64,000 nt of DNA, from assembly GCA_944323285.1 (NCBI GenBank), contig CALURV010000033.1:1-64000 (forward strand), given 5' to 3'. Source of the DNA: Candidatus Gastranaerophilales bacterium. GTDB taxonomy: Bacteria; Cyanobacteriota; Vampirovibrionia; Gastranaerophilales; Gastranaerophilaceae. Positions 230 to 25,259 of this stretch are shown in pieces; position 1 is the first letter of the stretch, and each line of letters begins with the position of its first letter. The notes beneath the pieces were generated by a model. The model was not told where the DNA came from, did not search any database, and worked only from the letters and a program-made list of their open reading frames with translations. The translations under genes and the position numbers were made by a program.

Positions 230-1276
230 ATGAAAATTACGGCTTTGGGAAAATCATTTTACCATTATCCGAAGAGTAATGCATACATAAGCAATATTTC
301 GATGTCCGCACCAAACTCTAAAGGTGCGGATATTTTTTGCTTTAAAGGTGCATCAAGTCTATCAGATAAGGCAAGTATTGTTCCCTCATCAAATCCAACA
401 GATTTAGAATATCAAATTGAGAAAAATACAGGCATCACCCCTGTAAAAACAGTTGTAAAAAAATTCAAGAATGGTGAAACGTATGTTAATATATCAGGTA
501 ATATTAGGGGTAAAGATGTATATATAATGCCATCATCTGGAGATAATGTTAATGATAGATTAATGGAAACATACTTAAAGGCAGATGCTGCAAAAAGAGC
601 AGGTGCAAACAAAGTTATAGCAGTTATGCCAAGTTTTGATTATGCTCGTCAAGAAAAAAGGACAGAAAAAGGTGAGCCTATAACTGCCAGATTAAATATG
701 GATTTACTAAAGACATCTGGTGTGGACGGAGTTATTACAACTGATTTACATACTCCGGCTATAGAAGGTTTTGCCCCTAATTCTATGCAAGTTATACATT
801 TAGAATCAATGGGAGTAATGAAAGATTACATTCAAGGCAAGCAAATACCTGATTTGGTTATTGTAAGTCCTGATATGGGAGGCATGAAGAGAGTTGACAA
901 GCTTGCAAAAGAATTAGATTGTGATAAAGCAGTTGTGTATAAACATCGTCAAGCACATAACGAAGCAACAGCACAATGTATAATAGGCAATGTAGCAGGA
1001 AAAAATTGTATTTTATATGATGATATAATAGATACAGCAGGAACAATAGCTGCGGCTGCCAAATTATTAAAGAAAAAAGGCGCTAAAGATATATATGTTT
1101 GTGCTTCTCATGGCTTATTCAACGGAGATGCTATGAAAAAACTTCAAGATGCTCCTATTAAAGAAGTTATTGTTACAAATAGTGTAGAGAAGAAACCGAA
1201 TTCTATTGATAAAATTAAGCAGGTTGATATTTCCGTTGAAATAGCAAAAGCTATGATGTCGATATCAAATAAGTAG
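230..1276 (+). CDS. prs: Ribose-phosphate pyrophosphokinase (PRPP synthetase)
   Basis: This cytoplasmic enzyme makes 5-phosphoribosyl-1-pyrophosphate from ribose-5-phosphate and ATP, for nucleotide, His/Trp and NAD synthesis. Visible family signatures are the ATP-loop segment YARQEKRTEKGEPITARL, the VSPDMGGMKR segment, and the PRPP-binding loop ILYDDIIDTAGTI. The 348 residues exceed the usual ~310-320. The excess is about 30 residues at the N terminus, beginning MKITALGKSF and rich in Ser/Asn/Tyr, before the expected first core strand (near DIFCFKGASS). The ATG has a strong AAAAGGAAG ribosome site. A full repeat element follows. Two genes downstream lies a phosphoribosyltransferase-like UbiA enzyme that would consume PRPP, so a functional link is possible. 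The N-terminal extension starts like several lineage-specific small proteins in this window. Confidence 0.93.
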   Translation: MKITALGKSFYHYPKSNAYISNISMSAPNSKGADIFCFKGASSLSDKASIVPSSNPTDLEYQIEKNTGITPVKTVVKKFKNGETYVNISGNIRGKDVYIMPSSGDNVNDRLMETYLKADAAKRAGANKVIAVMPSFDYARQEKRTEKGEPITARLNMDLLKTSGVDGVITTDLHTPAIEGFAPNSMQVIHLESMGVMKDYIQGKQIPDLVIVSPDMGGMKRVDKLAKELDCDKAVVYKHRQAHNEATAQCIIGNVAGKNCILYDDIIDTAGTIAAAAKLLKKKGAKDIYVCASHGLFNGDAMKKLQDAPIKEVIVTNSVEKKPNSIDKIKQVDISVEIAKAMMSISNK

Positions 1277-1641
1277 TCAATTGTATTTTATATTATTTTA
1301 TTAAAATATATTTAATCTAGTATTGTACTTTGTTACTGAGTTATCATCGTAACAAAGTACTTACCTTTTGAAAATATTGATTATCTCTCTTTTACTAAGG
1401 ATACAAGTTCACTCAAAAACAAAAGTTTTTTGGTTCATTGTGTAGAAAAATTCACTTACACTTTCAGTTTATAGTATATTTTTTATCGGACAGATATATA
1501 TTTTTGTTTGATATAGTCCTTCTGAGGCTAGATTTATTGGATAATTTTAGTATTTAATACAATCCATTCATTATGAATGTTTTAAAAAACTTTTATCTTT
1601 TTACTTAAATTTTTTCTTGATATAATATTTTATTATTTATA
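1277..1641. other. Intergenic stretch holding one repeat element
   Basis: This 365-bp gap holds a full-length reverse-oriented copy of the dispersed repeat (1311-1492). Beyond it lies AT-rich sequence with a possible promoter before the next gene: TTTTAC near 1599 and TATAAT at 1621-1626, about 16 bp apart. No coding signal is seen. Confidence 0.6.
1311..1492 (-). repeat. Dispersed hairpin repeat, copy 1 (full length, reverse)
   Basis: On the minus strand this reads from TGTCCGATAAAA through AAACTGAAAGTGTAAGTGAA, a CAAAAAAC/GTTTTTG stem and an ACTTTGTTA/TAACAAAGT stem, to ATACTAGATTAAA. It aligns end to end with copies at 5923, 12193 and 20801 but is the most diverged. It is the only full copy on the minus strand. 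Confidence 0.85.
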
Positions 1642-3489
1642 TTGGTTATGTTTATGTATGAAAAAAATTTAAAAATAATAAATTTTTCTGTCAAAAAATT
1701 TATATTTTCTATAATATTATCTTCAATTTTTACATTTATATTTACTTTTTTTTCTACTAATTTATATACAATGATAAGTGATTTTCACAATAGTGAGATA
1801 CCAAAATCAAGTTATATATATTTTGATTTTGGTTTTGCCAATCAAAAAATGATGATTTTTCATTACAAGGATTTTTATGAAAATCAATATAATTTTAAAT
1901 TTGACAAAGCAGGAACAATGATTTTGTCGAATTTAGAAAATACAAATGTAATTTTTTCAAAAGTAACTATCAATGGACAAATTTATAGAAATAAGAATAC
2001 AGGAATGGCTCCTCTTAAGATTACATATGATTTTGCTCCAAATGAGAATATTAAAATTTCAATAGAAACAAAAAAAATTACAAAAAATATTGAAAAAGAA
2101 GATTGTATAAATAAATGTGCACTAATAATATTATTAATTTTTTATTTTATTATATTTTTTTACTTTTTTAATATAGAAAATTTTATAATTAAATTTAAAA
2201 ATCTGTTAATTAAAAATAAAATTTCAATAATATTATTTTTTATTTTAGCTTTAATATATTTCCTATTGTGTAAGAATTTTTATATAAATACAGATTATTT
2301 TAAAACGTATATGGTTGGTTCTGACGTACCTTGGGTAATTGAGGATATATACTCTCCTACCATAAGAAGGTTCCACCCTTATTTCTTTATTGGTTTATAT
2401 CCTTTCTTAGAAATGATATTATATTTTATAAGTGATAAATTACTTGCTTTAGGTATTTTATATAGCTTTATTGCCGCCGCAACATGTACTTTTATTTATA
2501 AAACATTAATTTTAATTTTAAAAAGATATAAATTCATTGCACTTCTATTAACATTGCTTTATGCGTTTAGTTTTTGTCAACTTATTTTTACTGCGTTTTT
2601 TGAAACATATATCGTTACAAGTTTTTATTTAGCTATAATAACATTTTTAATTGTCAAAGAATCTTTATTTAATAAATCTTCTAAACTCAATTTAATTTTA
2701 ATTACTTTCTTTACAGCTTTGGCTTTCGGTGTTTCTATGAGTAATATTGTTCCTGTTTCTATACTTATTGCAACTTCTCAGTATATAAAACATAAAAACA
2801 AGAAGAAAATTATACTAATTTTCCTTTTTATTATAGTATTCATAATTGGATTTTTGTCATATAAATATCTCACTGCTGAAAATTTAATTGTGTCCTCTAT
2901 ATTTAATAAAGAAGAAATAAATAATTATTTGTATAAAATTCCATTAGCTGAAAGTATCAATAATTTTAATAAAACATCTCTTTCTGAAATTATAATTGCT
3001 CCAAAAATATTCATAGGAAATATGTTTGGACTTTGTGCTGATACTTTTGTTACTATAAATCTTGTTAAACATTCTATTATTCAAAATATTTTTAAAAATC
3101 TATTCTTAGGGTGTTTTTTTGTATTGTGGGCTTTTGCATATATTTATATAATTAAATTCTCTAAATTAAAGGATAAATCTGTTTTTTATTCAATTTCATG
3201 TTCATTATTAGTTAACTTTATATTTGTAATTATATGGAAGCCAGAAGATGGTTTTTTATTTGCATTAAGTCATCTATTATTTTGGTATATTATTATTGCT
3301 TTTTCTATTTATAAGTTATTATGTCTTTCATATAAAGATACAGTTCTTAATAAAAGAATATATATAATAATTATTACTATTATTGTATTATTTTTAATTT
3401 TTGAAATAATAAATAATTATTCAAGTTTAAATTTGATATATGAACAATCATATAAGATTATTGATAAAGGTTTATATTATGGATTTTAA
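1642..3489 (+). CDS. Polytopic membrane protein, GT-C glycosyltransferase-like
   Basis: This is an integral membrane protein with about 12 hydrophobic segments. An N-terminal TM anchor (about 18-42) is followed by a ~100-residue extracytoplasmic domain, then a second TM and a polytopic core from about residue 180. A loop after an early core helix carries the acidic SDVPW and a His-Pro-Tyr segment, as in GT-C enzymes that use polyprenyl-linked donors. The family match is by architecture only. The reading frame opens with TTG at 1642; ATG at 1648 or 1654 may be the true start, and no clear ribosome site is seen. The gene overlaps the next gene by 11 bp. Its base composition is much poorer in G+C than neighbouring genes. 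It could instead be a polymerase or flippase of a surface glycan. Confidence 0.6.
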   Translation: MVMFMYEKNLKIINFSVKKFIFSIILSSIFTFIFTFFSTNLYTMISDFHNSEIPKSSYIYFDFGFANQKMMIFHYKDFYENQYNFKFDKAGTMILSNLENTNVIFSKVTINGQIYRNKNTGMAPLKITYDFAPNENIKISIETKKITKNIEKEDCINKCALIILLIFYFIIFFYFFNIENFIIKFKNLLIKNKISIILFFILALIYFLLCKNFYINTDYFKTYMVGSDVPWVIEDIYSPTIRRFHPYFFIGLYPFLEMILYFISDKLLALGILYSFIAAATCTFIYKTLILILKRYKFIALLLTLLYAFSFCQLIFTAFFETYIVTSFYLAIITFLIVKESLFNKSSKLNLILITFFTALAFGVSMSNIVPVSILIATSQYIKHKNKKKIILIFLFIIVFIIGFLSYKYLTAENLIVSSIFNKEEINNYLYKIPLAESINNFNKTSLSEIIIAPKIFIGNMFGLCADTFVTINLVKHSIIQNIFKNLFLGCFFVLWAFAYIYIIKFSKLKDKSVFYSISCSLLVNFIFVIIWKPEDGFLFALSHLLFWYIIIAFSIYKLLCLSYKDTVLNKRIYIIIITIIVLFLIFEIINNYSSLNLIYEQSYKIIDKGLYYGF

Positions 3490-4402
3490 TATATTATACA
3501 ATATAGAAAAAATATTTAGAATTAACCATTATTTAAAAAATCTTATAATATTTATTCCTATTTTTTTTCTGCCAAATTTTCCTAATTTAGTTTCTATTAA
3601 TAAATTATTGTTAGCTTTTTTGTCTTTTTCATTAATTTCATCTGCGGTATATTTAAGTAATGATATTTATGATATTGAATCTGACAAGAAACATCCAATA
3701 AAAAAATTTCGTCCGCTAGCTAGTGGAATTATTAATAAAACACAATCTTTTTATATTATTTTAATTTTAGTTATAGTTAGTATATTTATTGCAAGGTTGA
3801 TAAATATATATTCAATAATATTGATTATAACATATTTTTTTATGAATATTTTATATTCTTCTTTATTCAAAAAGATTCCTTTTCTGGGTGATGTATGTAT
3901 TGCACTTGGTTTTGTTTTTAGGGTTTTAATTGGTTATTTTATATTTGTTGAAACAGGTTATTATGAAAAAAAACTTCTTTATAATATTGTAATGTTTATC
4001 TTTTTTACTGTTTTATTTTTTACTTTATGTAAAAGAAAACTTGAGATAAAATTTAATAAGAATAATAAGTATCAAGGAAAATTTTTATTATTTTATAATA
4101 ACAATTTATATAATATATTTATTAATATTGCTAGGATATTTTCCTATATTTTTTATTTACTTTTATTGTTAATTGTTTTAAATAAAGATATAGCAAGAAT
4201 AAGTAATATATTATTATTTTTATCTTTTATTGTTTATTTATTAATTTTATCAAGGTTTATGAAAATGGTTGATAAAAATAAAGATGACAATATTACAGCT
4301 ATAATTTATAACGATAAAAAGTTATTATTATATATTTTTTTCAATTTAATTTTATTATTGGGATATTTTTTTATGATATATCTCTTTAAATTTTTTCTAT
4401 AA
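3479..4402 (+). CDS. UbiA-family prenyltransferase, decaprenyl-phosphate phosphoribosyltransferase-like
   Basis: This membrane enzyme of the UbiA superfamily has an Asp-rich motif N61-D62-x2-D65-x3-D69 followed by KHPIKKFRPLASG. That combination resembles polyprenyl-phosphate phosphoribosyltransferase (DPRP synthase, Rv3806c-like) more than quinone or heme prenyltransferases. A second conserved loop reads LGDVCIALGFVFR. About eight TM helices span 307 residues. I chose ATG 3479 over an upstream in-frame ATG at 3440 because AAAGG sits just upstream of 3479 and it leaves only an 11-bp overlap with the preceding gene. The expected reaction transfers phosphoribose from PRPP to a polyprenyl phosphate. 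The prs gene lies two genes upstream, which supports this reading. Base composition is unusually AT-rich. Confidence 0.75.
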   Translation: MDFNILYNIEKIFRINHYLKNLIIFIPIFFLPNFPNLVSINKLLLAFLSFSLISSAVYLSNDIYDIESDKKHPIKKFRPLASGIINKTQSFYIILILVIVSIFIARLINIYSIILIITYFFMNILYSSLFKKIPFLGDVCIALGFVFRVLIGYFIFVETGYYEKKLLYNIVMFIFFTVLFFTLCKRKLEIKFNKNNKYQGKFLLFYNNNLYNIFINIARIFSYIFYLLLLLIVLNKDIARISNILLFLSFIVYLLILSRFMKMVDKNKDDNITAIIYNDKKLLLYIFFNLILLLGYFFMIYLFKFFL

Positions 4403-4460
4403 AATTAATTAAGAAATATATGATACAATATTTAAATGTGATGAATAATAAAGTGCTTTT

Positions 4461-5900
4461 ATGAAAATAACATATATATTGATATATCCACCAATTTCTC
4501 GTTCTGAGCGTTATTCTTCTAAGTTTTTAGGTGCTGCTGGAGGCTCGCAAGTTCCTTTGGGTATGTTATATATTGCAGCTTACTTAGAAAAATATGGTTA
4601 CAATGTTAGATTTATAGATGCAGAGCATCAAAAATTAACTGAAGAAGGAACTCTTGAACAAGTTAGAAAATATGTAAAAGAAGAACATAATTGTTATATT
4701 GGATTAACTTCTACAACTGTTTGTTTTAACAGAACATTATCATTGGCGAAAAGACTAAAAGAAGAATATCCTAGTATTCCTATAGTTATAGGTGGAGCTC
4801 ATATTTCTGCTGTTGCTGAACATGTAATGAATTATGAATGTTTTGATTATGGTGTTATTGGAGAAGGTGAAATTACAACATATGAATTAATTGAATGTTT
4901 GCAACAAGGTGGTAATCTTGAATCGGTTGATGGAATAGTATTCAGAAAAAATAATCAGATAATATATACAAATCCAAGAAAACTTGTAAAAAAACTAGAT
5001 GAACTTCCTTTCCCTGCAAGACATTTAGTAAAAGATATACATAGTTACGTGCCAACATTATGTGATTATAAAACGTTACCTGTAACTAACATTATTACTT
5101 CAAGAGGTTGTCCTGGTTTGTGTACATTTTGTTCTAATGCTGTATTTGGTAGAACATATAGGGAAAGATCTGCTCAGAACATTCTTGAAGAAATAAAAGA
5201 AGTTATTCATAAATATAATATTAGAGAAATACATTTTAATGATGATACATTCTTAATTAATAAAAAAAGGATATATGAATTATTCGAATCATGTAAAAAA
5301 GAAAAATTAAAGTTTAATTGGTCTTGTTTTTCAAGAGTTGATAATGTAACATATGAGTTTCTAAAATTTCTAAAAAAGAATGGATGTTGGCATATTGCTT
5401 TTGGTATAGAATCAGGAGATGAGAATGTTTTAAAAGACATAAAAAAAGAAATTTCATTGGATATGGTTGAACAGGTAATTAGTTGGTGTCATAAAATAGG
5501 TATAAAAACAAAAGGGCATTTTATTTTAGGTCATCCAACTGATACTATTGAATCTATTAATAAAACAATTGATTTTGCTTTAAAAGTTAAATTTTCTGAT
5601 GTGGTAGTTACGATTTCAACTCCAATGCCAGGTTCAGAACAATTTAGAACGCTTATTCCTCATGATAAAATCAAAAATTTAGATTATACAAAATTTAATT
5701 CTTGGTTTTCAGTTGTTGAACCAAAAGGAATATCTTCTAAGAAATTATTAATAAAACAAAAAGAATTTTATAAAAGGTTTTATTTAAGACCATCAGTTAT
5801 ATTTAGATATGGATTGAGTTTAATATCATTTGCTGGGCCAAAAAGATTTATAACATTATTTATGAATTTTATATATATTATTCTTCCTATTAAAAATTAA
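4461..5900 (+). CDS. B12-binding-domain radical SAM protein
   Basis: This is a cobalamin-dependent radical SAM enzyme. Residues 1-150 form a Rossmann-like B12-binding domain without the classic DxHxxG (PLGMLYIAAYLEKYGYNV, then VIGGAHIS and GVIGEGE). Residues 205-400 form the radical SAM barrel, with the [4Fe-4S] cluster cysteines C217, C221 and C224 (GCPGLCTFC), and HFNDDTF and AFGIESGDE segments typical of the family. Length 479 is normal. Such enzymes often methylate or rearrange unactivated carbons of lipids, cell-wall precursors or secondary metabolites. With a UbiA enzyme and a GT-C-like protein just upstream, a role in modifying a polyprenyl lipid or glycan is plausible but unproven. 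A 58-bp gap separates it from the UbiA gene. Full repeat copy 2 follows the stop. Confidence 0.85.
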   Translation: MKITYILIYPPISRSERYSSKFLGAAGGSQVPLGMLYIAAYLEKYGYNVRFIDAEHQKLTEEGTLEQVRKYVKEEHNCYIGLTSTTVCFNRTLSLAKRLKEEYPSIPIVIGGAHISAVAEHVMNYECFDYGVIGEGEITTYELIECLQQGGNLESVDGIVFRKNNQIIYTNPRKLVKKLDELPFPARHLVKDIHSYVPTLCDYKTLPVTNIITSRGCPGLCTFCSNAVFGRTYRERSAQNILEEIKEVIHKYNIREIHFNDDTFLINKKRIYELFESCKKEKLKFNWSCFSRVDNVTYEFLKFLKKNGCWHIAFGIESGDENVLKDIKKEISLDMVEQVISWCHKIGIKTKGHFILGHPTDTIESINKTIDFALKVKFSDVVVTISTPMPGSEQFRTLIPHDKIKNLDYTKFNSWFSVVEPKGISSKKLLIKQKEFYKRFYLRPSVIFRYGLSLISFAGPKRFITLFMNFIYIILPIKN

Positions 5901-5922
5901 TTTATAGTGAAATTCATTAATG

Positions 5923-6105
5923 TGTCCGGGAAAAAATTCACGATAAGATAAAAGTGTGAGTGAATTTTTTTTACAAAACGAACCAAAAACTTTGTTTTTG
6001 AGTAAGCTTGTATCCGTAGTGAAACGAAGATGAGCAGTATTTTCAAAAGTTGAGTACTTTGTTAGCAAGTATGAGACGGTAACAAAGTGCGATACTAGAT
6101 TAAAT
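5923..6105 (+). repeat. Dispersed hairpin repeat, copy 2 (full length)
   Basis: Full-length copy beginning TGTCCGGGAAAAAATTCAC and ending GTGCGATACTAGATTAAAT. It holds stem I (AAAATTCAC/GTGAATTTT, followed by a T-run), stem II (CAAAAAC-TTT-GTTTTTG), a weaker stem III and stem IV (ACTTTGTTA/TAACAAAGT). It starts 22 bp after the radical SAM stop. Together with the fragment at 6115 it fills most of the 335-bp gap before the M16 protease gene. Confidence 0.9.
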
Positions 6106-6114
6106 CAATTATAT

Positions 6115-6143: not shown

Positions 6144-6235
6144 TAAATTATAATTGTTTTTATTACACAATATAAAATTGTAATAGAAAATTAGTGTATA
6201 ATATTTTATTATAGGGAAATTATTGAGGGTTTATT

Positions 6236-8848
6236 ATGAGAAAAATATTAATTGTGATTGCAATTATTTTTATAGGTTTAGTGTCATATGCTGCTGATTG
6301 TTCAACATTTAAACTGGATAATGGTCAAGGGGTTATAATAAAAGAAGTTCATGATAATCCGATTGTAATAATAGATACTTGGATAAAAACAGGTTCTATA
6401 AATGAAACGGATGAAAATAATGGAGTTGCCCATTTTCTTGAGCATTTATTTTTTAAAGGTACTGCAAAGCATTCAGGTAAGGAGTTTGATCAAATTTTAG
6501 AGTCAAAAGGTGCTATTACAAATGCTGCAACCAGTAAAGATTTTACACATTATTATATTATAATACCTTCACAGTATTTTGAATTAGCTTTAGATTTACA
6601 TTCAGATATGCTTTTAAATCCTTTAATTCCAAGAAAAGAATTAGAAAAGGAAAGAAAAGTTGTAATAGAAGAAATTGCTAAAAATAATGATAAACCAACA
6701 ACTGTTTTATATAGAAATATGATTCAAAGTTTTTATAAAGTACATCCATACAAAAGAGATGTTATAGGAACAAAAGAGGTTATAGAAACTATATCAAGGG
6801 AACAAATACTTGATTTTTATAATAAATGGTATACGCCTGAGAATATGACAACCGTTATTATTGGTGATGTTGATACACAGAATGCTTTTAATTTAGTTAA
6901 AAGTAAATTTAATAAGCCAATGTCGGATAATTTAAAAAATAAAAAAATAGTATATAAGCTTGATAAAAAACCGGAACATCAAATAGAAAATAAAGTTGAA
7001 ATGAAAGTTCAAACCGGATATTTGTTAATAGGCTTTAAAGGTTGTAGCTCTATTAGTGATAAAGATTCATATGCTTTAGATGTTCTTGCTACTATTCTTG
7101 GAGATGGAAAATCTTCAAGATTATATAGAAGTATAAAAGAAGAAAAACAACTTGTACATTCTATATCGGCTTCTCACTCTTCTATGAGAGATGATTCGAT
7201 TTTCTATATTTCAGCCAATTATGTTACTGAAGATATGGAAAAATTAAAAAATTCTATTTTCTACGAAATTGAAAGATTATATAAAAACGAAATAACTAAT
7301 GAAGAAATACAAAAAGCAAAAAATATTATAGAAAGAGATACTTTTTACTCAAGAGAATCAGTATCTAATATAGCAGGTGAAATAGGTTATACAGTAACTT
7401 TAACGAATTCTATAGACTATTATAAAAATTATTTAGATAATATAAATAAAGTTACAGCAGAAGATTTAAAACGAGTGGCTAAGACATATTTAAATCAAGA
7501 TTTAGCTGTTATTTCAATTGTAATGCCGGAGAAAAAAAGCAATTCTAAAGAAAATTTAAAATTGGATAAAAATTACCAAGCAAAAGTAATAAGTCAAGAT
7601 AAAGAAACAACAAAATATGAACTTGAAAATGGTGCAGTATTAGTTATTACTAAAAATACCGCAAATGATATTATTGCAATGGAAATGAGTGTTAGAGGCG
7701 GTAATAACCTTGAAAAAATTAAAGGAACAGCCTATGTTACTGCAGGAGCCATGTTAAAAGGTACAAATAAATATAGAAATCAAGAGTTATCACAACTGTT
7801 AGAAGAAAATGGGATAAGATTAGTACCTACATCAAGAGGGGATTCTTTTAGTGTTATTACTAAGTTTACAAAAAATGAAATAGAAATAGCATTAGATGTA
7901 TTTTCCGAAGTTGTAAAAAATGCGACATTAGATTCTTTTGATATAGAAAGAGTAAAAGCCGATAAACTATATTTAATAAAGAATCAAAAAAATACTCCCG
8001 ATGGTGTTGCGTTTGATGAATTTAAAACCGCAGTTTGGGCAAATACTCCTTTTGGCAATACAGGTAAAGTTTTAGAAAAAACTATTCCTTTAATACAAAG
8101 AGAAGATGTTGTAGAGTATTATAAAAATTTGTTTCCTGCTGAAAATGTTGTTATTACAATTAATGGAAATGTTGATGAGCAACTATTCATTAATTATTTT
8201 TCATCATTATTGGAAAATGATGGTAAGGCTAAAATAAAACTTACTCAGTACAAAGATAAATATAAATCTTTGACTAAAAATAAAATAGTTAAAGTGAGTA
8301 AAGATTCTCAAGCCGCATGGCTTATTTTAGGCTGGCTAACAGATGGAGTTGTTAATGAGAAAGATTGGGCAACACTTCAGGTAATAGATTCAATTTTGGG
8401 TTCTGGTATGAGTTCAAGATTATTTACTCAATTAAGAGATGAACAAAGTCTTGCATATCAAGTAGGATCATCATACTCAGCTAATATGAATCAAGGGGTT
8501 TTTGCTTTATATATTGCAACTAATCCTAATAATATACAAGTAGCCAAAAAAGGTATGTTTAGTGAAATACAAAAGTTGAAGACAGAATTTGTTACTGATA
8601 AAGAACTATCAGAAGCAAAAGATAAACTGCTTGGTAATTTTGTCCTTTCTATGGAAACAAATATGGATAAAGCTTCTGTTATCAATGCTTTAGAAATAAC
8701 AGACAGAGGATATTTGTTTCTAGACAGGTATCCACAATTAATAAATTCAGTTACTTTACAAGATGTTATAAAAGCAGCTAATAAATATTTCACCAAACCA
8801 TATATTTTTACTGTTGTAGGTCCTGATAAAAATATTGAAAAATTATAG
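6236..8848 (+). CDS. M16-family zinc metalloprotease (two-domain, exported)
   Basis: An N-terminal signal peptide (about 1-20, MRKILIVIAIIFIGLVSYAA) precedes two M16 modules. The first carries the inverted zinc motif HFLEH (66-70) with the distal Glu in VVIEEI (145-146), so it is catalytic. The second (from about 450) lacks HxxEH but keeps the DEQSLAYQVGSSYS region that forms the partner half of the active site. This is the usual arrangement for single-chain periplasmic M16B proteases of ~850-900 residues. The role is likely peptide degradation in the periplasm. The ATG start has GAGGG upstream, and a TATAAT sits at 6197-6202. PilZ and kinase genes follow in the same direction, but a functional link is unclear. 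Confidence 0.9.
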   Translation: MRKILIVIAIIFIGLVSYAADCSTFKLDNGQGVIIKEVHDNPIVIIDTWIKTGSINETDENNGVAHFLEHLFFKGTAKHSGKEFDQILESKGAITNAATSKDFTHYYIIIPSQYFELALDLHSDMLLNPLIPRKELEKERKVVIEEIAKNNDKPTTVLYRNMIQSFYKVHPYKRDVIGTKEVIETISREQILDFYNKWYTPENMTTVIIGDVDTQNAFNLVKSKFNKPMSDNLKNKKIVYKLDKKPEHQIENKVEMKVQTGYLLIGFKGCSSISDKDSYALDVLATILGDGKSSRLYRSIKEEKQLVHSISASHSSMRDDSIFYISANYVTEDMEKLKNSIFYEIERLYKNEITNEEIQKAKNIIERDTFYSRESVSNIAGEIGYTVTLTNSIDYYKNYLDNINKVTAEDLKRVAKTYLNQDLAVISIVMPEKKSNSKENLKLDKNYQAKVISQDKETTKYELENGAVLVITKNTANDIIAMEMSVRGGNNLEKIKGTAYVTAGAMLKGTNKYRNQELSQLLEENGIRLVPTSRGDSFSVITKFTKNEIEIALDVFSEVVKNATLDSFDIERVKADKLYLIKNQKNTPDGVAFDEFKTAVWANTPFGNTGKVLEKTIPLIQREDVVEYYKNLFPAENVVITINGNVDEQLFINYFSSLLENDGKAKIKLTQYKDKYKSLTKNKIVKVSKDSQAAWLILGWLTDGVVNEKDWATLQVIDSILGSGMSSRLFTQLRDEQSLAYQVGSSYSANMNQGVFALYIATNPNNIQVAKKGMFSEIQKLKTEFVTDKELSEAKDKLLGNFVLSMETNMDKASVINALEITDRGYLFLDRYPQLINSVTLQDVIKAANKYFTKPYIFTVVGPDKNIEKL

Positions 8849-8879
8849 AATATAAGATAAATTTAAATAAGAAATAATA

Positions 8880-9461
8880 ATGAGAAATGAAATATTAGAA
8901 AATAAAGAGTTCAATATTCTTTCAAGAAGTATAGATAATGCTTCTAAGTGTTGTGTTGTAGAAGTTTGTGAAGATTGTTTTAAAGTAAAGCTTGTAGACA
9001 ACAGTAAATATGAAAAAGATGAATCTGTTGAATTATTTACTATGACTAGAAAAGGTCAATTATATTTTGAAACAATAGTTAAAGAAGTAGATAATGATAT
9101 TCTATCAATTTGGTTTCCTATAGCATATAAATATTTACAGAGAAGAGAATATTCAAGAATACAAACAGATAAAACTTTATTATTGATAAATGGTGATAAA
9201 GAAATTACTGCAAAAGTTATAGATATAAGTGCAGGTGGTTTGAAGGTATCGGTAAAAGAACAATTAAAACTAATTACAGAATATAGTATAGAAATCGAAA
9301 TAGAAAATAGATTAATAAAAAGTATTTTTGAACCGATAAGAATAGAATTTGTAAGAGATGAATTTATAGTGTCAGGTCGTTTTAAAAATATTTCAAATTA
9401 TGATAGAGTTGCATTGGTACAATATTGTTTTAGAATGCAAATAGAAAATAATAATAAATAA
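8880..9461 (+). CDS. PilZ-domain c-di-GMP receptor (YcgR-like)
   Basis: The 193-residue protein has an N-terminal YcgR-like flanking domain (about 20-90) and a C-terminal PilZ domain. The c-di-GMP binding signatures are visible: RREYSR (RxxxR, about 98-103) and DISAGG (DxSxxG). It should act as a c-di-GMP-responsive effector on motility, pili or exopolysaccharide. It starts 31 bp after the M16 gene, with a second in-frame ATG 6 bp on; neither has a strong ribosome site. The genes following it encode a sensor kinase and an HD-GYP phosphodiesterase, so effector and turnover enzyme are clustered. Confidence 0.85.
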   Translation: MRNEILENKEFNILSRSIDNASKCCVVEVCEDCFKVKLVDNSKYEKDESVELFTMTRKGQLYFETIVKEVDNDILSIWFPIAYKYLQRREYSRIQTDKTLLLINGDKEITAKVIDISAGGLKVSVKEQLKLITEYSIEIEIENRLIKSIFEPIRIEFVRDEFIVSGRFKNISNYDRVALVQYCFRMQIENNNK

Positions 9462-11186: not shown

Positions 11187-12190
11187 TGACGGATAAGTAT
11201 AAGGTATTAATAGTAGATGATGAACCTGATAACTTAGCATTATTATATAGGACATTAAGAGGGAAATATGATATAGCAAAGTCAACATCACCTCTTTTGG
11301 CTTTAGAGATGTTAAAACAGGAAACATTTCACTGTATATTATCGGATCATAAAATGCCGGAGATGGATGGCGTTGAGTTTTTAAAAAGAGCAAGTGAAAT
11401 ATCTCCTAATACAATGAGGCTTTTAGTAACAGCATATTCAGATGCCGGAATATTAATAGATGCTATTAACTATGCAAAAATATACAGATACATAAAAAAA
11501 CCATATAATCCCGACGAGCTTTTATTAGTTGTTGAAAATGCTTTAGAGTATTTACAGTTAAAAATAGATAATAGTTCCTTAATAAATGATTTAAAAGAAC
11601 TTTTTGCCGGAACAATCACAGCCATAGTTGAAGCCTTAGATGCAAAAGATTCATATACTTTAGGAAGAAGCAGAAGAGTTACATATTATGCTGTAAAAAT
11701 AGCAAAGTCCTTACATTTAAGTGATATAACAACAGGGAAGATTGAGCTTGCCGGGTTGTTACATGATATAGGCATGATAGGTGTTTCAGATGATATCCTT
11801 ACGAAAGTTGAGAAGTTGTCAATTGATGAATATAATGAAATAAAAAAACATGTACAGCATAGTGTGAAGATATTAGATGATATAAAACAATTAAATGATG
11901 TTGTTGAGATAATAAAATATCATCATGAACATTATGATGGGAATGGATATCCATATGGAATAAAAGGTGATGATATACCAATAGGCTCAAGAATAATAGC
12001 AGTAGCTGATGCTTTTGACAGTATGATAACACCAAAAGTATATAGACAGCACATATCACCTGATGAAGCTTTAAAGTATATAAAAGAACTGGCAGGAAAA
12101 CAATTTGATCCTGTTGTTGTTGAACATTTAGAAATTATAATGCCGTCTGCAGTTAGAGAAATAAGAGAACTTGAATCACAGAGACAATAA
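11186..12190 (+). CDS. Response regulator with REC and HD-GYP domains
   Basis: A receiver domain (1-120) carries D11-D12, phospho-acceptor D54 (SDHKMPEMDG), the TAYSD switch and K105. An HD-GYP domain (about 140-330) carries HD at 193-194 and HHEHYDGNGYP at 246-256, the pattern of c-di-GMP phosphodiesterases. One oddity is the box usually reading GHSxRV at the domain's start. It reads GRSRRV here, so a normally conserved His is Arg161. Activity may therefore be altered. It is coupled to the upstream kinase and two genes downstream of a PilZ receptor. Repeat copy 3 starts only 2 bp after its stop. Confidence 0.88.
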   Translation: MTDKYKVLIVDDEPDNLALLYRTLRGKYDIAKSTSPLLALEMLKQETFHCILSDHKMPEMDGVEFLKRASEISPNTMRLLVTAYSDAGILIDAINYAKIYRYIKKPYNPDELLLVVENALEYLQLKIDNSSLINDLKELFAGTITAIVEALDAKDSYTLGRSRRVTYYAVKIAKSLHLSDITTGKIELAGLLHDIGMIGVSDDILTKVEKLSIDEYNEIKKHVQHSVKILDDIKQLNDVVEIIKYHHEHYDGNGYPYGIKGDDIPIGSRIIAVADAFDSMITPKVYRQHISPDEALKYIKELAGKQFDPVVVEHLEIIMPSAVREIRELESQRQ

Positions 12191-12192
12191 AT

Positions 12193-12374
12193 TGACCGAG
12201 AAAAAATTCACGATAAGCAGAAAGTGTGAGTGAATTTTTTTACAAAACGAACCAAAAGCTTTGTTTTTGAGTGAGCTTGTATCCTTCGTGAAACGAAGGT
12301 GAGCAGCGTTCTTAAAAGGTGAGTACTTTGTTAGCGAGGATGAGACGATAACAAAGTGTGATACTAGATTAAAT
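12193..12374 (+). repeat. Dispersed hairpin repeat, copy 3 (full length)
   Basis: Full copy in which all four stems are well formed. Stem I is AAAATTCAC/GTGAATTTT. Stem II is CAAAAGC-TTT-GTTTTTG, where a G-T wobble replaces A-T in other copies. Stem III is CCTTCGT-GAA-ACGAAGG (perfect only here). Stem IV is ACTTTGTTA/TAACAAAGT. It starts 2 bp after a stop codon. Confidence 0.9.
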
Positions 12375-14176: not shown

Positions 14177-14180
14177 AATA

Positions 14181-14303
14181 TGTCCGAGAAAAAATTTACG
14201 ATAAGCTGAAAGTGTGAGTGAATTTTTTCGAGTGGCATTTTTAAAAGGTAAGTACTTTGTTAGCGAGGATGACTCGGTAACAAAGTGCGATACTAGATTA
14301 AAT
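14181..14303 (+). repeat. Dispersed hairpin repeat, copy 4 (short form)
   Basis: This short form keeps stem I and stem IV but lacks ~60 bp holding stems II and III. The junction reads GAATTTTTTCGAGTGGCATT. The 33-nt stem IV (14254-14286) has the loop orientation AGCGAGGATGACTCGGT. It starts 4 bp after the proS stop. Confidence 0.88.
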
Positions 14304-14311
14304 TAAAAAAG

Positions 14312-15440: not shown

Positions 15441-15556
15441 TAGAGAAAATTCACGATAAGCTGAAAGTGTGAGTGAATTTTTCGAGTGGCGTTTTTAAAA
15501 GGAGAGTACTTTGTTAGCGAGGATGACTCGGTAACAAAGTTCGATACTAGATTAAA
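15441..15556 (+). repeat. Dispersed hairpin repeat, copy 5 (short form)
   Basis: Short form lacking stems II and III, with stem IV at 15508-15540. It starts 5 bp after one stop codon and ends 3 bp before the stop of the convergent gene, so it fills the whole 3'-3' gap. Confidence 0.88.
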
Positions 15557-15559
15557 TAA

Positions 15560-16672
15560 TTAGCTTTCATCGCTAAATAATTTGAGTTGTCCTTTAGAAG
15601 CTTCAAATATAGTTTTTGTTGCATTTGCAACGTAGTTTCTATATTTCTTTTTTTTGAAATTTTTTGATTTAATTAGTGCATCTACTTCACTAAAATATTT
15701 TTGTAAATATTTAATTCTATTATCTTTATCTTCATTCAACCAATGAAGAAAAGATTTATTACTTTTTTGAGAATTGCAGGCCTGATGCATAGAAATATAG
15801 TTAGAAATATCATTATTATTATTGTCTATATCGTAAGCAATAATATGATCAGTATTAGCTACTGAAGATTGAAGGAATCTTAAAGCGATTTCAGCTGAAG
15901 ACCAATCATTATTTTGTTTATTTTTACCGGAATATTTAACAATCCAAGCAGAATTCATGTCTGAAGAGGTAGGGAAACCTTTTGCAAGTATTTGAATTTT
16001 TTCATATTTTTTAGGATTTTGAATTTTAATTTTACTGATTCTATCAATCATAATTTTTCTTCTAACGGGAGCAGAAGGATTCTTTTTGCGAATCATAGAT
16101 TGAAGGCAATCAAGCTTTTGCATTAAACAGCTTTTTTCTGGTTCTGATAATCCTTTAGCTATTGCTCTCATTTTTTTAATTTGTCTCATTTGAGCTTGTT
16201 GTACAATAGGTAATTTTGTCTCTCTTAAATTAACAAGCAGAGTTCTTATATCTTTGGAATTACCATTTTTTTTAGATAGAGCAAGAATTTCATCATAAAC
16301 ACTTTCTTCTACAGGTCTCATATATTCTCTATATTGACCTAAATGTTCAAGATATTGATCAGGTGATAAATTAGTGAATTCTTCAGCAATTTTATTAAAT
16401 TTATTACGAGTAAGCATTTTTTTACCGCAAGCAGGGCATGTAAGATTGTTAATTCTTGCTATTGCAAAATTCCCAGATTTTTCTGCTAATTTTTTTTTGG
16501 TTGTACCGGTTGATCTTTTTGTTGATGTAAAATTTACAGGGTAATAAAAAAAATTACAAATTTTATCGTTTTGACCAGAGGAATTATAATCAACAGTGTT
16601 GAAAGATGTACTTTTAGATGGGTTATAAAAATTATTTATTTTTATTGAGTATGTAATCGGCAGTATTTTCAT
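15560..16672 (-). CDS. HNH-endonuclease-like protein with CxxC motif
   Basis: The 370 residues start MKILPITYSIKINNF followed by a ~55-residue low-complexity Ser/Asn segment. A CPACGKK zinc-knuckle (C79, C82) comes next, then a helical middle, then a C-terminal pattern D275-H276, N291, H296 and C299-N300 with K303. This fits an HNH/McrA-like nuclease core (DHI...N....H..CN..K). No partner methylase, toxin domain or phage gene is adjacent. The N-terminal start resembles other lineage-specific proteins in the window. It could be a structural zinc protein rather than an active nuclease. It is convergent with the TPR-HExxH gene across repeat copy 5. Confidence 0.6.
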   Translation of the reverse strand: MKILPITYSIKINNFYNPSKSTSFNTVDYNSSGQNDKICNFFYYPVNFTSTKRSTGTTKKKLAEKSGNFAIARINNLTCPACGKKMLTRNKFNKIAEEFTNLSPDQYLEHLGQYREYMRPVEESVYDEILALSKKNGNSKDIRTLLVNLRETKLPIVQQAQMRQIKKMRAIAKGLSEPEKSCLMQKLDCLQSMIRKKNPSAPVRRKIMIDRISKIKIQNPKKYEKIQILAKGFPTSSDMNSAWIVKYSGKNKQNNDWSSAEIALRFLQSSVANTDHIIAYDIDNNNNDISNYISMHQACNSQKSNKSFLHWLNEDKDNRIKYLQKYFSEVDALIKSKNFKKKKYRNYVANATKTIFEASKGQLKLFSDES

Positions 16673-19646: not shown

Positions 19647-20798
19647 ATGAAAAAAATATTAATAAAAATAATTTTAATATTATTTTTCTCAACAAATTGT
19701 TTAAAAGTATATTCTTCAGAATATAACGATATACCACATGGTTTTTGGGCTTATAAAGAAATAGATGCATTAACAAATAAAAATATAATAACTGGGTATC
19801 CTGATAATAAGTATTTGCCGCAAAAGTATATAACAAGAGCAGAATACGCGGCAATGGTTATAAAAGCGTTGGGATTAGAAAATGTAGAAATAGAAAAAAT
19901 GTATACATTTGAAGATGTTGGACCCTCAGATTGGGCTTGGAGATATATTTTAATTGCATTAAATTATGATATATTAAAACCTGCTTCGGATAGTTATTTT
20001 TATCCAAATGATTATGTAACAAGAAGTGAAGTAATAACATTTTTGGTAAATTTGCTAAAAACGGAAGATATTACAAAGAAAGATGCAATAATAGCTCTTC
20101 AAAATGCGTATTTTGATTTTGATGATGTTCCGGATTGGTTTAAAGTTACGGCAGGAAAAGCAGAAGTTTTAAATGTTATAGCAAAAGAACCGCCAAGACA
20201 AAATTATCTGGATTATGATAAATATGTTACAAGAGCTCAGATTGCAGTATTTTTGGCAAATATGAAAAGAGAAACTGATTCATATATAGAAGAAAAAAAG
20301 AAAGCTGAAAAAACTCCAAAAATAGCAGAAGGGATAATAATAGAAAATGTATTGCAAGATGGAGATGTAGTAACTATACCTGCAAAAACAGTTCTTCCAA
20401 TAACAATAATAGGTCAAATAAGTACAAAAGATGTAAAACCGGGACAAATGTTTCAAGCGAGATTTGCAAGTAATATAATTGACTATGAACACCATCTTTT
20501 ATTGTCAAAAGACATGATATTAATAGGTAAAATTCTCGATGCTGCAGATGGAAAATATTTAATAAGAAATGGAAAATTTATGTTTGAACTATCTGCTGTC
20601 AATAATGAAGATAATTTAACAAAAATTCTTGGCGCAGCTGAATGTGAGGTTCCGTCTATTGAAGCAAATAAAGTTAAGAAAACATTTAAAACAGTAATAA
20701 AAGGAAGAAATTTAACTGTTAAAGACGGACAAATTTTATATATCAAACTTTTTAGACAAATGAGGGTAAATATTGTTACAGGAGAAGTTTTAGATTAA
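19647..20798 (+). CDS. SLH-domain surface protein
   Basis: An exported 383-residue protein. A signal peptide (about 1-24) precedes three S-layer homology repeats (about 27-80, 92-140 and 155-208; FWAYKEIDALTNKNIITGYPD and ITRAEYAAMVIKAL are typical). A Lys/Glu linker leads to a C-terminal beta-rich domain of unknown type (about 230-383). SLH domains bind peptidoglycan-linked polymer, so the protein should be held at the cell wall; in cyanobacterial relatives SLH proteins also tie the outer membrane to the wall. The ATG has AAGGAAGAGG upstream. Repeat copy 6 begins 2 bp after its stop. Confidence 0.88.
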   Translation: MKKILIKIILILFFSTNCLKVYSSEYNDIPHGFWAYKEIDALTNKNIITGYPDNKYLPQKYITRAEYAAMVIKALGLENVEIEKMYTFEDVGPSDWAWRYILIALNYDILKPASDSYFYPNDYVTRSEVITFLVNLLKTEDITKKDAIIALQNAYFDFDDVPDWFKVTAGKAEVLNVIAKEPPRQNYLDYDKYVTRAQIAVFLANMKRETDSYIEEKKKAEKTPKIAEGIIIENVLQDGDVVTIPAKTVLPITIIGQISTKDVKPGQMFQARFASNIIDYEHHLLLSKDMILIGKILDAADGKYLIRNGKFMFELSAVNNEDNLTKILGAAECEVPSIEANKVKKTFKTVIKGRNLTVKDGQILYIKLFRQMRVNIVTGEVLD

Positions 20799-20800
20799 TT

Positions 20801-20980
20801 TGTCCGAGAAAAATTTACGATAAGCTGAAAGTGTGAGTGAATTTTTTTTACAAAACGAACCAAAAACTTTGTTTTTGAGTGAGCTTGTATCCGTAGTGAA
20901 ACGAAGGTAATTGGCATTTGTAAAAGGTGAGAACTTTGTTAGCGAGGATGAGAAGGTAACAAAGTGCGATACTAGATTAA
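20801..20980 (+). repeat. Dispersed hairpin repeat, copy 6 (full length)
   Basis: Full copy from TGTCCGAGAAAAATTTACG to GCGATACTAGATTAA. It begins 2 bp after one stop and abuts the stop of the convergent 106-residue gene at 20981, filling the gap exactly. Confidence 0.9.
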
Positions 20981-25099: not shown

Positions 25100-25221
25100 T
25101 CGAACTAGAAAATTCAATATAAGCTGAAAATGTGAGTGAATTTTTTTGAGTGGTGTTTTTAAAAGGTGAGTACTTTGTTACCGAGTCATCCTCGCTAACA
25201 AAGTGCGATACTAGATTAAAT
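25100..25221 (+). repeat. Dispersed hairpin repeat, copy 7 (short form, inverted stem-loop)
   Basis: Short form lacking stems II and III. Its 5' end is diverged (CGAACTAGAAAATTCAATAT). The 33-nt stem IV (25172-25204) reads the exact reverse complement of the stem IV in copies 4 and 5, while flanks keep normal orientation. It starts 1 bp after the prepilin peptidase stop. Confidence 0.88.
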
Positions 25222-25226
25222 ATATT

Positions 25227-25259
25227 AAAAAAGAGAACTTCTAAAAGTTCTCTTTTTTT
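25227..25259. terminator. Bidirectional intrinsic terminator
   Basis: AAAAAAGAGAACTT pairs with AAGTTCTCTTTTTTT around a CTAA loop, between the prepilin peptidase and recA 3' ends. Confidence 0.88.

Follow-up and report, generated by a model that had tools for sequence, protein, structure and literature searches.

Known Pentofuranose Systems and the Locus Under Study

The closest described counterpart of the locus analyzed here is the three-component pentofuranose system of Citrobacter youngae O1/O2, which comprises a polyprenyl-phosphate phosphoribosyltransferase (PPPRS, ORF15), a small transporter (ORF14) and a glycosyltransferase of the GT-C type (ORF12, family GT136) (PNAS 2024, PMC11127046). 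The window considered in this work is a stretch of 64,000 nucleotides from a Candidatus Gastranaerophilales bacterium (C33:1-64000, on a contig of 103 kb; source genome G000, 1.86 Mb in 36 contigs, completeness 97%). Its segment 1642-4402 holds two adjacent genes that we regard as a probable accessory cassette for pentofuranosylation, in which a UbiA-family enzyme would make polyprenyl-phosphate-phosphoribose and a GT-C enzyme would add the furanose to a surface glycan or protein. Gastranaerophilales are gut bacteria related to cyanobacteria. The pair is laid out as follows:

1642-3489, plus strand: candidate GT-C-type membrane glycosyltransferase, 615 amino acids, TTG start
3440-4402, plus strand: predicted UbiA-family polyprenyl-phosphate phosphoribosyltransferase, of the PPPRS or decaprenyl-phosphate phosphoribosyltransferase (DPRP synthase) type; open reading frame (ORF) of 320 amino acids

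Sequence alignment favors the ATG at 3479 as the start of the UbiA protein, leaving a likely overlap of 11 bases with the GT-C gene.

The window shares with the C. youngae system a UbiA-family enzyme predicted to use phosphoribosyl pyrophosphate (PRPP) and coded near a GT-C enzyme, as well as the character of an accessory modification. It differs in having two genes, without a fused HAD phosphatase domain or a linked transporter, so that the linkage of PPPRS and GT-C is present and that of a flippase is not. Moreover, ORF12 carries a C-terminal carbohydrate-binding module, whereas the GT-C protein of the window has an N-terminal beta domain. With the mycobacterial Rv3806c pathway (Rv3807c, DprE1/E2, AftA/Emb) the pair has in common the fold, nearly all substrate residues and a GT-C end enzyme, but it differs in two substitutions (Asn for Q135 and Phe for Y157), shows no DprE1/E2 and does not form a cell-wall arabinan locus. 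A PPPRS is also used in the arabinofuranosylation of type IV pilin in Pseudomonas aeruginosa, as cited in PMC11127046. This system resembles the window in combining PPPRS and GT-C outside actinobacteria, but no pilin gene or epimerase was recognized beside the window pair. The GT-C enzyme of the pilin system is reportedly TfpW.

Genes annotated as DPRP synthase also occur on plasmids of Legionella, Flammeovirgaceae and Haloterrigena. The Flammeovirgaceae plasmid (L088:4851-7874) carries in a row genes for a DPRP synthase, an FAD oxidoreductase and a short-chain dehydrogenase/reductase (SDR), the latter two being of the DprE1 and DprE2 kinds; the three probably form an operon for an arabinofuranose donor, here in Bacteroidota. 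Hence, a polyprenyl-phosphoribose route outside actinobacteria, as proposed in the first-pass annotation of this DNA, is not new in itself, given the published system (PMC11127046) and the annotated plasmid genes. A literature search returned no report of such a system in Gastranaerophilales or Melainabacteria and, among the papers listed for GT136 and pentofuranoses from 2024, only PMC11127046 was relevant. Our best reading is that the pair is a pared-down form of the C. youngae three-component system and includes a GT-C protein without a name in the libraries searched. If this is true, the lipid-pentofuranose pathway described in 2024 extends to a gut-bacterial lineage, and pentofuranose is predicted to be found on the surface of these bacteria.

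Probable Family and Predicted Substrate Residues of the UbiA Protein

The UbiA protein is probably a DPRP-synthase-type polyprenyl-phosphate phosphoribosyltransferase, an assignment already suggested in the first-pass annotation and now consistent with sequence profiles, predicted fold, residues and phylogenetic position. It is matched by PF01040 in the Pfam scan (85.3 bits) and shows the UbiA-superfamily fold with the NDxxDxxxD motif; this motif and the HPxKxxRP motif, both noticed at the outset, are conserved across its relatives. Its best NCBIfam match among the 18 families listed is decaprenyl-phosphate phosphoribosyltransferase NF008977 (146.4 bits), and two further DPRP models score 97.6 and 73.4 bits. 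The second match is NF006088 (126.7 bits), a generic 'UbiA family prenyltransferase' model of 482 positions to which the protein aligns from position 195 onward, in a layout that may be analogous to the phosphatase-fused ORF15 (PMC11127046). Lower scores are obtained with PRK12884 prenyltransferase (62.3), UbiA (45.3), the geranylgeranylglycerol-phosphate type (43.8), EboC (33.4), heme O (32.9) and MenA (12.4), the chlorophyll model reaching 45.3 bits at most.

The first phmmer match in the Protein Data Bank (PDB) is the Mycobacterium tuberculosis DPRP synthase 8j8j (E 2.1e-18), and a profile of 19 UbiA members aligns with residues 16-296 of its 302 with 170.6 bits, the next enzyme scoring 47.7. 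The AlphaFold2 (AF2) model of the protein (pLDDT 82.4) also finds its best fold match in 8j8j (TM-score 0.78), whereas the other UbiA enzymes listed lie at 0.58-0.68. In a tree rooted on MenA, the DPRP-synthase-like proteins cluster apart from UbiA, CyoE, MenA and digeranylgeranylglyceryl phosphate (DGGGP) synthase, the branching order inside their group being largely unresolved (one key node has a support of 0.085). Grouping with heme, quinone or geranylgeranyl enzymes, named in the first-pass annotation as the result that would overturn its assignment, was found with none of the enzymes compared. The source genome encodes a second, divergent UbiA protein (on contig C10), which lacks the pattern of PRPP residues considered next.

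The contacts of Rv3806c with Mg-PRPP and decaprenyl phosphate were taken as given in PMC10994848. Nine of these residues (K28, Y70, N73, D77, K87, R90, Y138, K143 and K191) are identical in 19/19 members of the family, and R22 is Arg in 9/19, including the window protein, and Lys in 10/19. The family thereby retains K28, Y70 and K191 of the phosphoribose and lipid-phosphate contacts, the Lys/Arg cluster for pyrophosphate (R22, K87, R90 and K143) and the Mg ligands N73 and D77. Two positions of the first set deviate throughout, Q135 being replaced by Asn and Y157 by Phe in 19/19 members; the latter position is Phe in some mycobacteria too, according to the same paper. The plasmid proteins of Legionella, Flammeovirgaceae and Haloterrigena that are annotated as DPRP synthase likewise carry Asn and Phe at these positions, and the residue pattern of the Flammeovirgaceae enzyme is exactly that of the window UbiA protein. 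K28, Y70, H84-P85 and K191 are missing from all four prenyltransferases compared (Escherichia coli UbiA, CyoE, MenA and DGGGP synthase), and a signature of K28, Y70 and K191 plus HPxKxxRP thus appears to separate PRPP-using UbiA proteins from these four.

Predicted Fold of the 615-Residue Protein

Sequence searches with the 615-residue protein returned no match in Pfam and NCBIfam at E 0.1 or among PDB sequences at E 10. Its structure was modeled with AF2 from an input of the window protein plus seven proteins of six named loci (residue n of the model corresponds to ORF residue n+3). The modeled architecture consists of a transmembrane helix, a beta-rich domain (model residues ~52-142), a second transmembrane helix and then a helical core. 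The core most likely is of the GT-C type, a fold defined by 7-13 transmembrane helices and an outer domain (PMC11127046); in the model it would cover ORF residues ~191-609, behind the membrane-anchored beta domain. The GT-C-like character first assigned to this protein has therefore been recovered in its predicted structure.

The top Foldseek matches of the model are AftA, OST, EmbB and AglB, with E 0.004-0.03. In a comparison with VIA-align, rows 1-41 are, by their titles, GT-C enzymes or complexes with such an enzyme, with Z values of 10.8-21.4, and the next row drops to 6.3. These matches span model residues ~188-606, over up to 376 residues, and include Pmt, ALG, ArnT, OST, Emb, AftA/B and PimE. 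GPI-transamidase entries are counted among the 41 on the same footing. Two residues of the first outer loop, D228 and H245 (ORF numbering), are invariant in the alignments and may have a catalytic role, in a loop that is modeled with pLDDT <50.

Regarding known families, partner proteins of related loci match DUF6080 (PF19558) weakly and under its curated cut-off (L042, E 1.1e-5; L063, E 1.6e-5), but the window protein itself has no match; a literature search found nothing on DUF6080. The modeled fold points to GT-C-like enzymes that do not have a name in Pfam and NCBIfam.

Conservation of the Pair and Possible Exchange of Partners

We considered 192 genomes of the order, taking gene neighborhoods from 19 of the 21 other genomes that bear the UbiA protein. 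The latter is present in 22/192 genomes and the 615-residue protein in 7/192; across the phylum, the UbiA profile detects 40/292 genomes at E 1e-35. A gene for a large hydrophobic protein lies immediately upstream of UbiA, on the same strand, in 16/19 of the relatives' loci. By ORF limits, the two genes overlap in 11 of these 16 loci and lie within 2 bases of each other in four, while the remaining locus (L039) has a spacing of 27 bases. The four genes of the initial description were all confirmed as plus-strand ORFs, but they do not form one cluster as had been supposed: in the other genomes fetched, only UbiA and an upstream gene for the 615-residue type or another large membrane protein stay together.

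Single-linkage BLAST sorts the 16 upstream partners into fam1, the family of the window protein (four loci), fam5 (five), fam6 (five) and fam44 (two). Profile comparison with hhalign relates fam1 to fam5 (probability 99.2), making 9/16 partners akin to the window GT-C protein, and detects no relation between fam5 and fam6 (probability 0.2). Within three genera of the sample the partner family varies from genome to genome, namely in g1 (the window genome has fam1 and G109 has fam6), g5 (fam5 and fam6) and g18 (fam1 and fam6). The closest named relative (L062:6989-14080) has two tandem GT-C-UbiA pairs around a MATE gene on the opposite strand, with identities to the window proteins of 61% for GT-C in each pair and of 62 and 54% for UbiA.

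A tentative extension, which we hold to be possible though somewhat short of an even chance, is that these loci represent a recombining surface-sugar cassette. The lipid-ribose synthase would be kept while the adjacent glycosyltransferase is swapped among at least three sequence classes (the related fam1 and fam5; fam6; fam44). The cassette would occupy scattered sites and rely on the host genome for a phosphatase and a flippase. If so, related gut bacteria may switch between pentofuranose decorations through exchange of the acceptor enzyme. The cassette also decays in places, as seen from a broken UbiA gene in G109 (L054:10177-10830) and from a GT-C copy of G174 that is split (L057:2387-4173).

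Proposed Pathway and Alternative Explanations

In the pathway that we propose, the UbiA protein would move 5-phosphoribose from PRPP onto a polyprenyl phosphate, presumably undecaprenyl phosphate, PRPP being drawn from the ordinary cellular pool and the adjacent PRPP synthetase paralogue being accidental. A phosphatase encoded elsewhere would then remove the 5'-phosphate and an unlinked transporter would flip the lipid sugar, after which the GT-C protein would transfer the furanose to a surface glycan or protein outside the membrane, a presumed activity that is in keeping with its modeled fold. Ribofuranose is taken as the default sugar because no epimerase is linked. With respect to the surface furanose glycan originally envisaged, the DPRP type of the UbiA protein and the GT-C fold have held up, but arabinose is unsupported over ribose and no DprE1/DprE2, flippase or phosphatase is tied to the pair.

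Candidates for the intermediate functions are seen in single cases. For the phosphatase, the source genome has one PAP2 gene elsewhere, while L046 has an HAD-type hydrolase gene immediately before UbiA and L039 a PAP2-type gene that adjoins UbiA in convergent orientation. For the flippase, UbiA is directly followed in G098 by GtrA and acyltransferase-3 genes (L047:2072-3494), and the MATE gene between the two pairs of L062 is a further hint.

Several observations weigh against the proposed two-gene cassette. The window UbiA protein scores below the curated NF008977 cut-off of 234 bits and is thus not a member by that measure; relatives also remain under it (L062 146.0, L042 205.6, L055 225.1), whereas the three plasmid proteins of Legionella, Flammeovirgaceae and Haloterrigena exceed it (241.9-290.8 bits). 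The tree joins the Gastranaerophilales proteins to Rv3806c with moderate support (0.849), and K208 of Rv3806c, which lies outside the residue count given above, corresponds to a position that is variable by eye in the family alignment. Confidence in the GT-C model is modest (mean pLDDT 65.2, pTM 0.67, with the first outer loop below 50), and Foldseek alone gives nothing at E 0.001 for the model of the 615-residue protein. Of the 16 upstream proteins, seven belong to two unclassified families (fam6 and fam44), the fold having been modeled for fam1 only; three of the 19 loci (L041, L044, L046) have no large membrane gene directly upstream of UbiA, and fam1 proteins occur without an adjoining UbiA in two genomes (G174:C61; G120, where this is a second copy). 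Finally, Pfam and NCBIfam scans of the window showed no gene next to the pair for a phosphatase, a flippase or an epimerase, and a search of the source genome for GtrA at E 0.001 found none.

Among the alternatives, an arabinofuranose route, with DprE1/DprE2-like epimerases encoded elsewhere and the GT-C protein acting as an arabinosyltransferase, seems unlikely. It would agree with the AftA chains being the first Foldseek matches of the GT-C model (E 0.004-0.006) and with the joint presence of a DPRP synthase and DprE1/E2-like genes on one plasmid. However, the Flammeovirgaceae DprE1-like protein has no homologue on the contig of the window (103 kb) or in the fetched UbiA stretches, and a DprE2-like search of the same scope gave a single match, an SDR in L050 (24.5%). 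PF04030, the DprE1 marker, is absent from the source genome and from 24/24 genomes, which counts for little since this model also misses the Flammeovirgaceae protein.

Direct transfer of 5-phosphoribose without a phosphatase step, yielding phosphoribosylated glycans, is in our view quite improbable. Such a scheme would explain why no phosphatase was recognized beside the window pair, but it sits poorly with the HAD-type and PAP2-type genes next to UbiA in L046 and L039 and with the PAP2 gene elsewhere in the source genome.

We give little credit to the idea that the UbiA protein is an ordinary prenyltransferase for quinone, heme or another aromatic or lipid acceptor, with an incidental proximity to GT-C. 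Its fold and Asp motif are indeed common to the superfamily, its second NCBIfam match is generic and, according to PMC9235831, a little-known UbiA-like group (EboC/UbiA-297) farnesylates quinolines. Yet the phosphoribose and lipid-phosphate residues are conserved, three of them being missing from the four prenyltransferases compared, the EboC model scores poorly and the other UbiA protein of the genome does not have the pattern, while a large membrane protein gene is linked in 16/19 loci. Residues, profile scores and fold together disfavor this explanation.

Neighboring Genes, Possible Insertion Block and Repeats

The pair is flanked in the window by two further genes and by copies of a dispersed repeat:

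230-1276, plus strand: prs, PRPP synthetase paralogue, 348 amino acids; judged outside the pair
1302-1495, minus strand: copy of the dispersed repeat (~190 bp), on the left border of a block missing from genome G105
4461-5900, plus strand: B12-binding radical SAM protein; judged outside the pair
5916-6110, plus strand: copy of the ~190-bp repeat in opposite orientation, past the radical SAM gene at the right edge of the same block
12185-12374, 20794-20980, 14177-14306, 15443-15562 and 25109-25227: other copies of the ~190-bp repeat

The prs product matches TIGR01251 (311.5 bits) in the NCBIfam scan and has an odd N-terminal extension of ~45 residues; it is considered a paralogue because a canonical prs is also present in the genome, on contig C4 (421.5 bits with the same model). 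The 4461-5900 protein contains B12-binding and Radical_SAM domains, its best NCBIfam match being HpnJ, far below the cut-off of that model.

That the four genes form one unit, in which prs would provide PRPP reserved for the route and the radical SAM enzyme would act on the lipid or sugar, is extremely improbable, for although they lie on the same strand with a gap of 58 bp between UbiA and the radical SAM gene, and the window prs is an extra copy, co-occurrence, the empty site in G105 and gene neighborhoods largely refute such a pathway. A close prs paralogue (E 1.1e-108 or better) is present in 9/192 genomes and UbiA in 22/192, the two together in the window genome only. G105 has prs (82%) and, 180 bp further on, the M16 peptidase gene (93%), past which its genes correspond to those of the window. 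Aligned with blastn, window segments 1-1255 and 6177-8989 match G105 sequence just 144 bp apart, so that ~4.9 kb including the radical SAM gene are absent there. Other genes occupy the prs-M16 interval in G158 and G190. G123 lacks a UbiA match; there, an M16 gene recognized by its sequence comes directly after the radical SAM gene (81%), and prs lies on a different contig. The 20 fetched stretches and the 14.8-kb stretch of L062 encode no homologue of either prs or the radical SAM protein. In view of this co-occurrence, the empty site in G105 and the arrangement in G123, prs and the radical SAM gene, which the first-pass annotation had included in the unit, are most likely chance neighbors of the pair, belonging to the host backbone or having arrived separately.

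The pair itself looks like an accessory and apparently movable two-gene cassette, because of the empty site in G105, its presence in 22/192 genomes and its very low G+C content. The latter is 18.9%, a value as low in only 2/610 sliding windows of the same size (a set that includes windows over the pair), against 33.9% for prs and 27.1% for the radical SAM gene. In G084, the gene immediately before UbiA encodes a relative of the window's M16 peptidase, with no GT-C gene upstream (L041:8731-12774); the M16 neighborhood may be a recurrent place of insertion.

The ~190-bp repeat has at least ~40 copies in the genome (40 of 169 candidates scored). An Rfam scan of window 1-26000 assigned no family, and folding of three copies as RNA gave z values of -0.56 to -2.03, which are not convincing. 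The inverted copies at both edges of the block may have helped recombination. Six of the seven copies in the window begin at or just past a stop codon, in the direction of the gene, the copy after prs being reversed.

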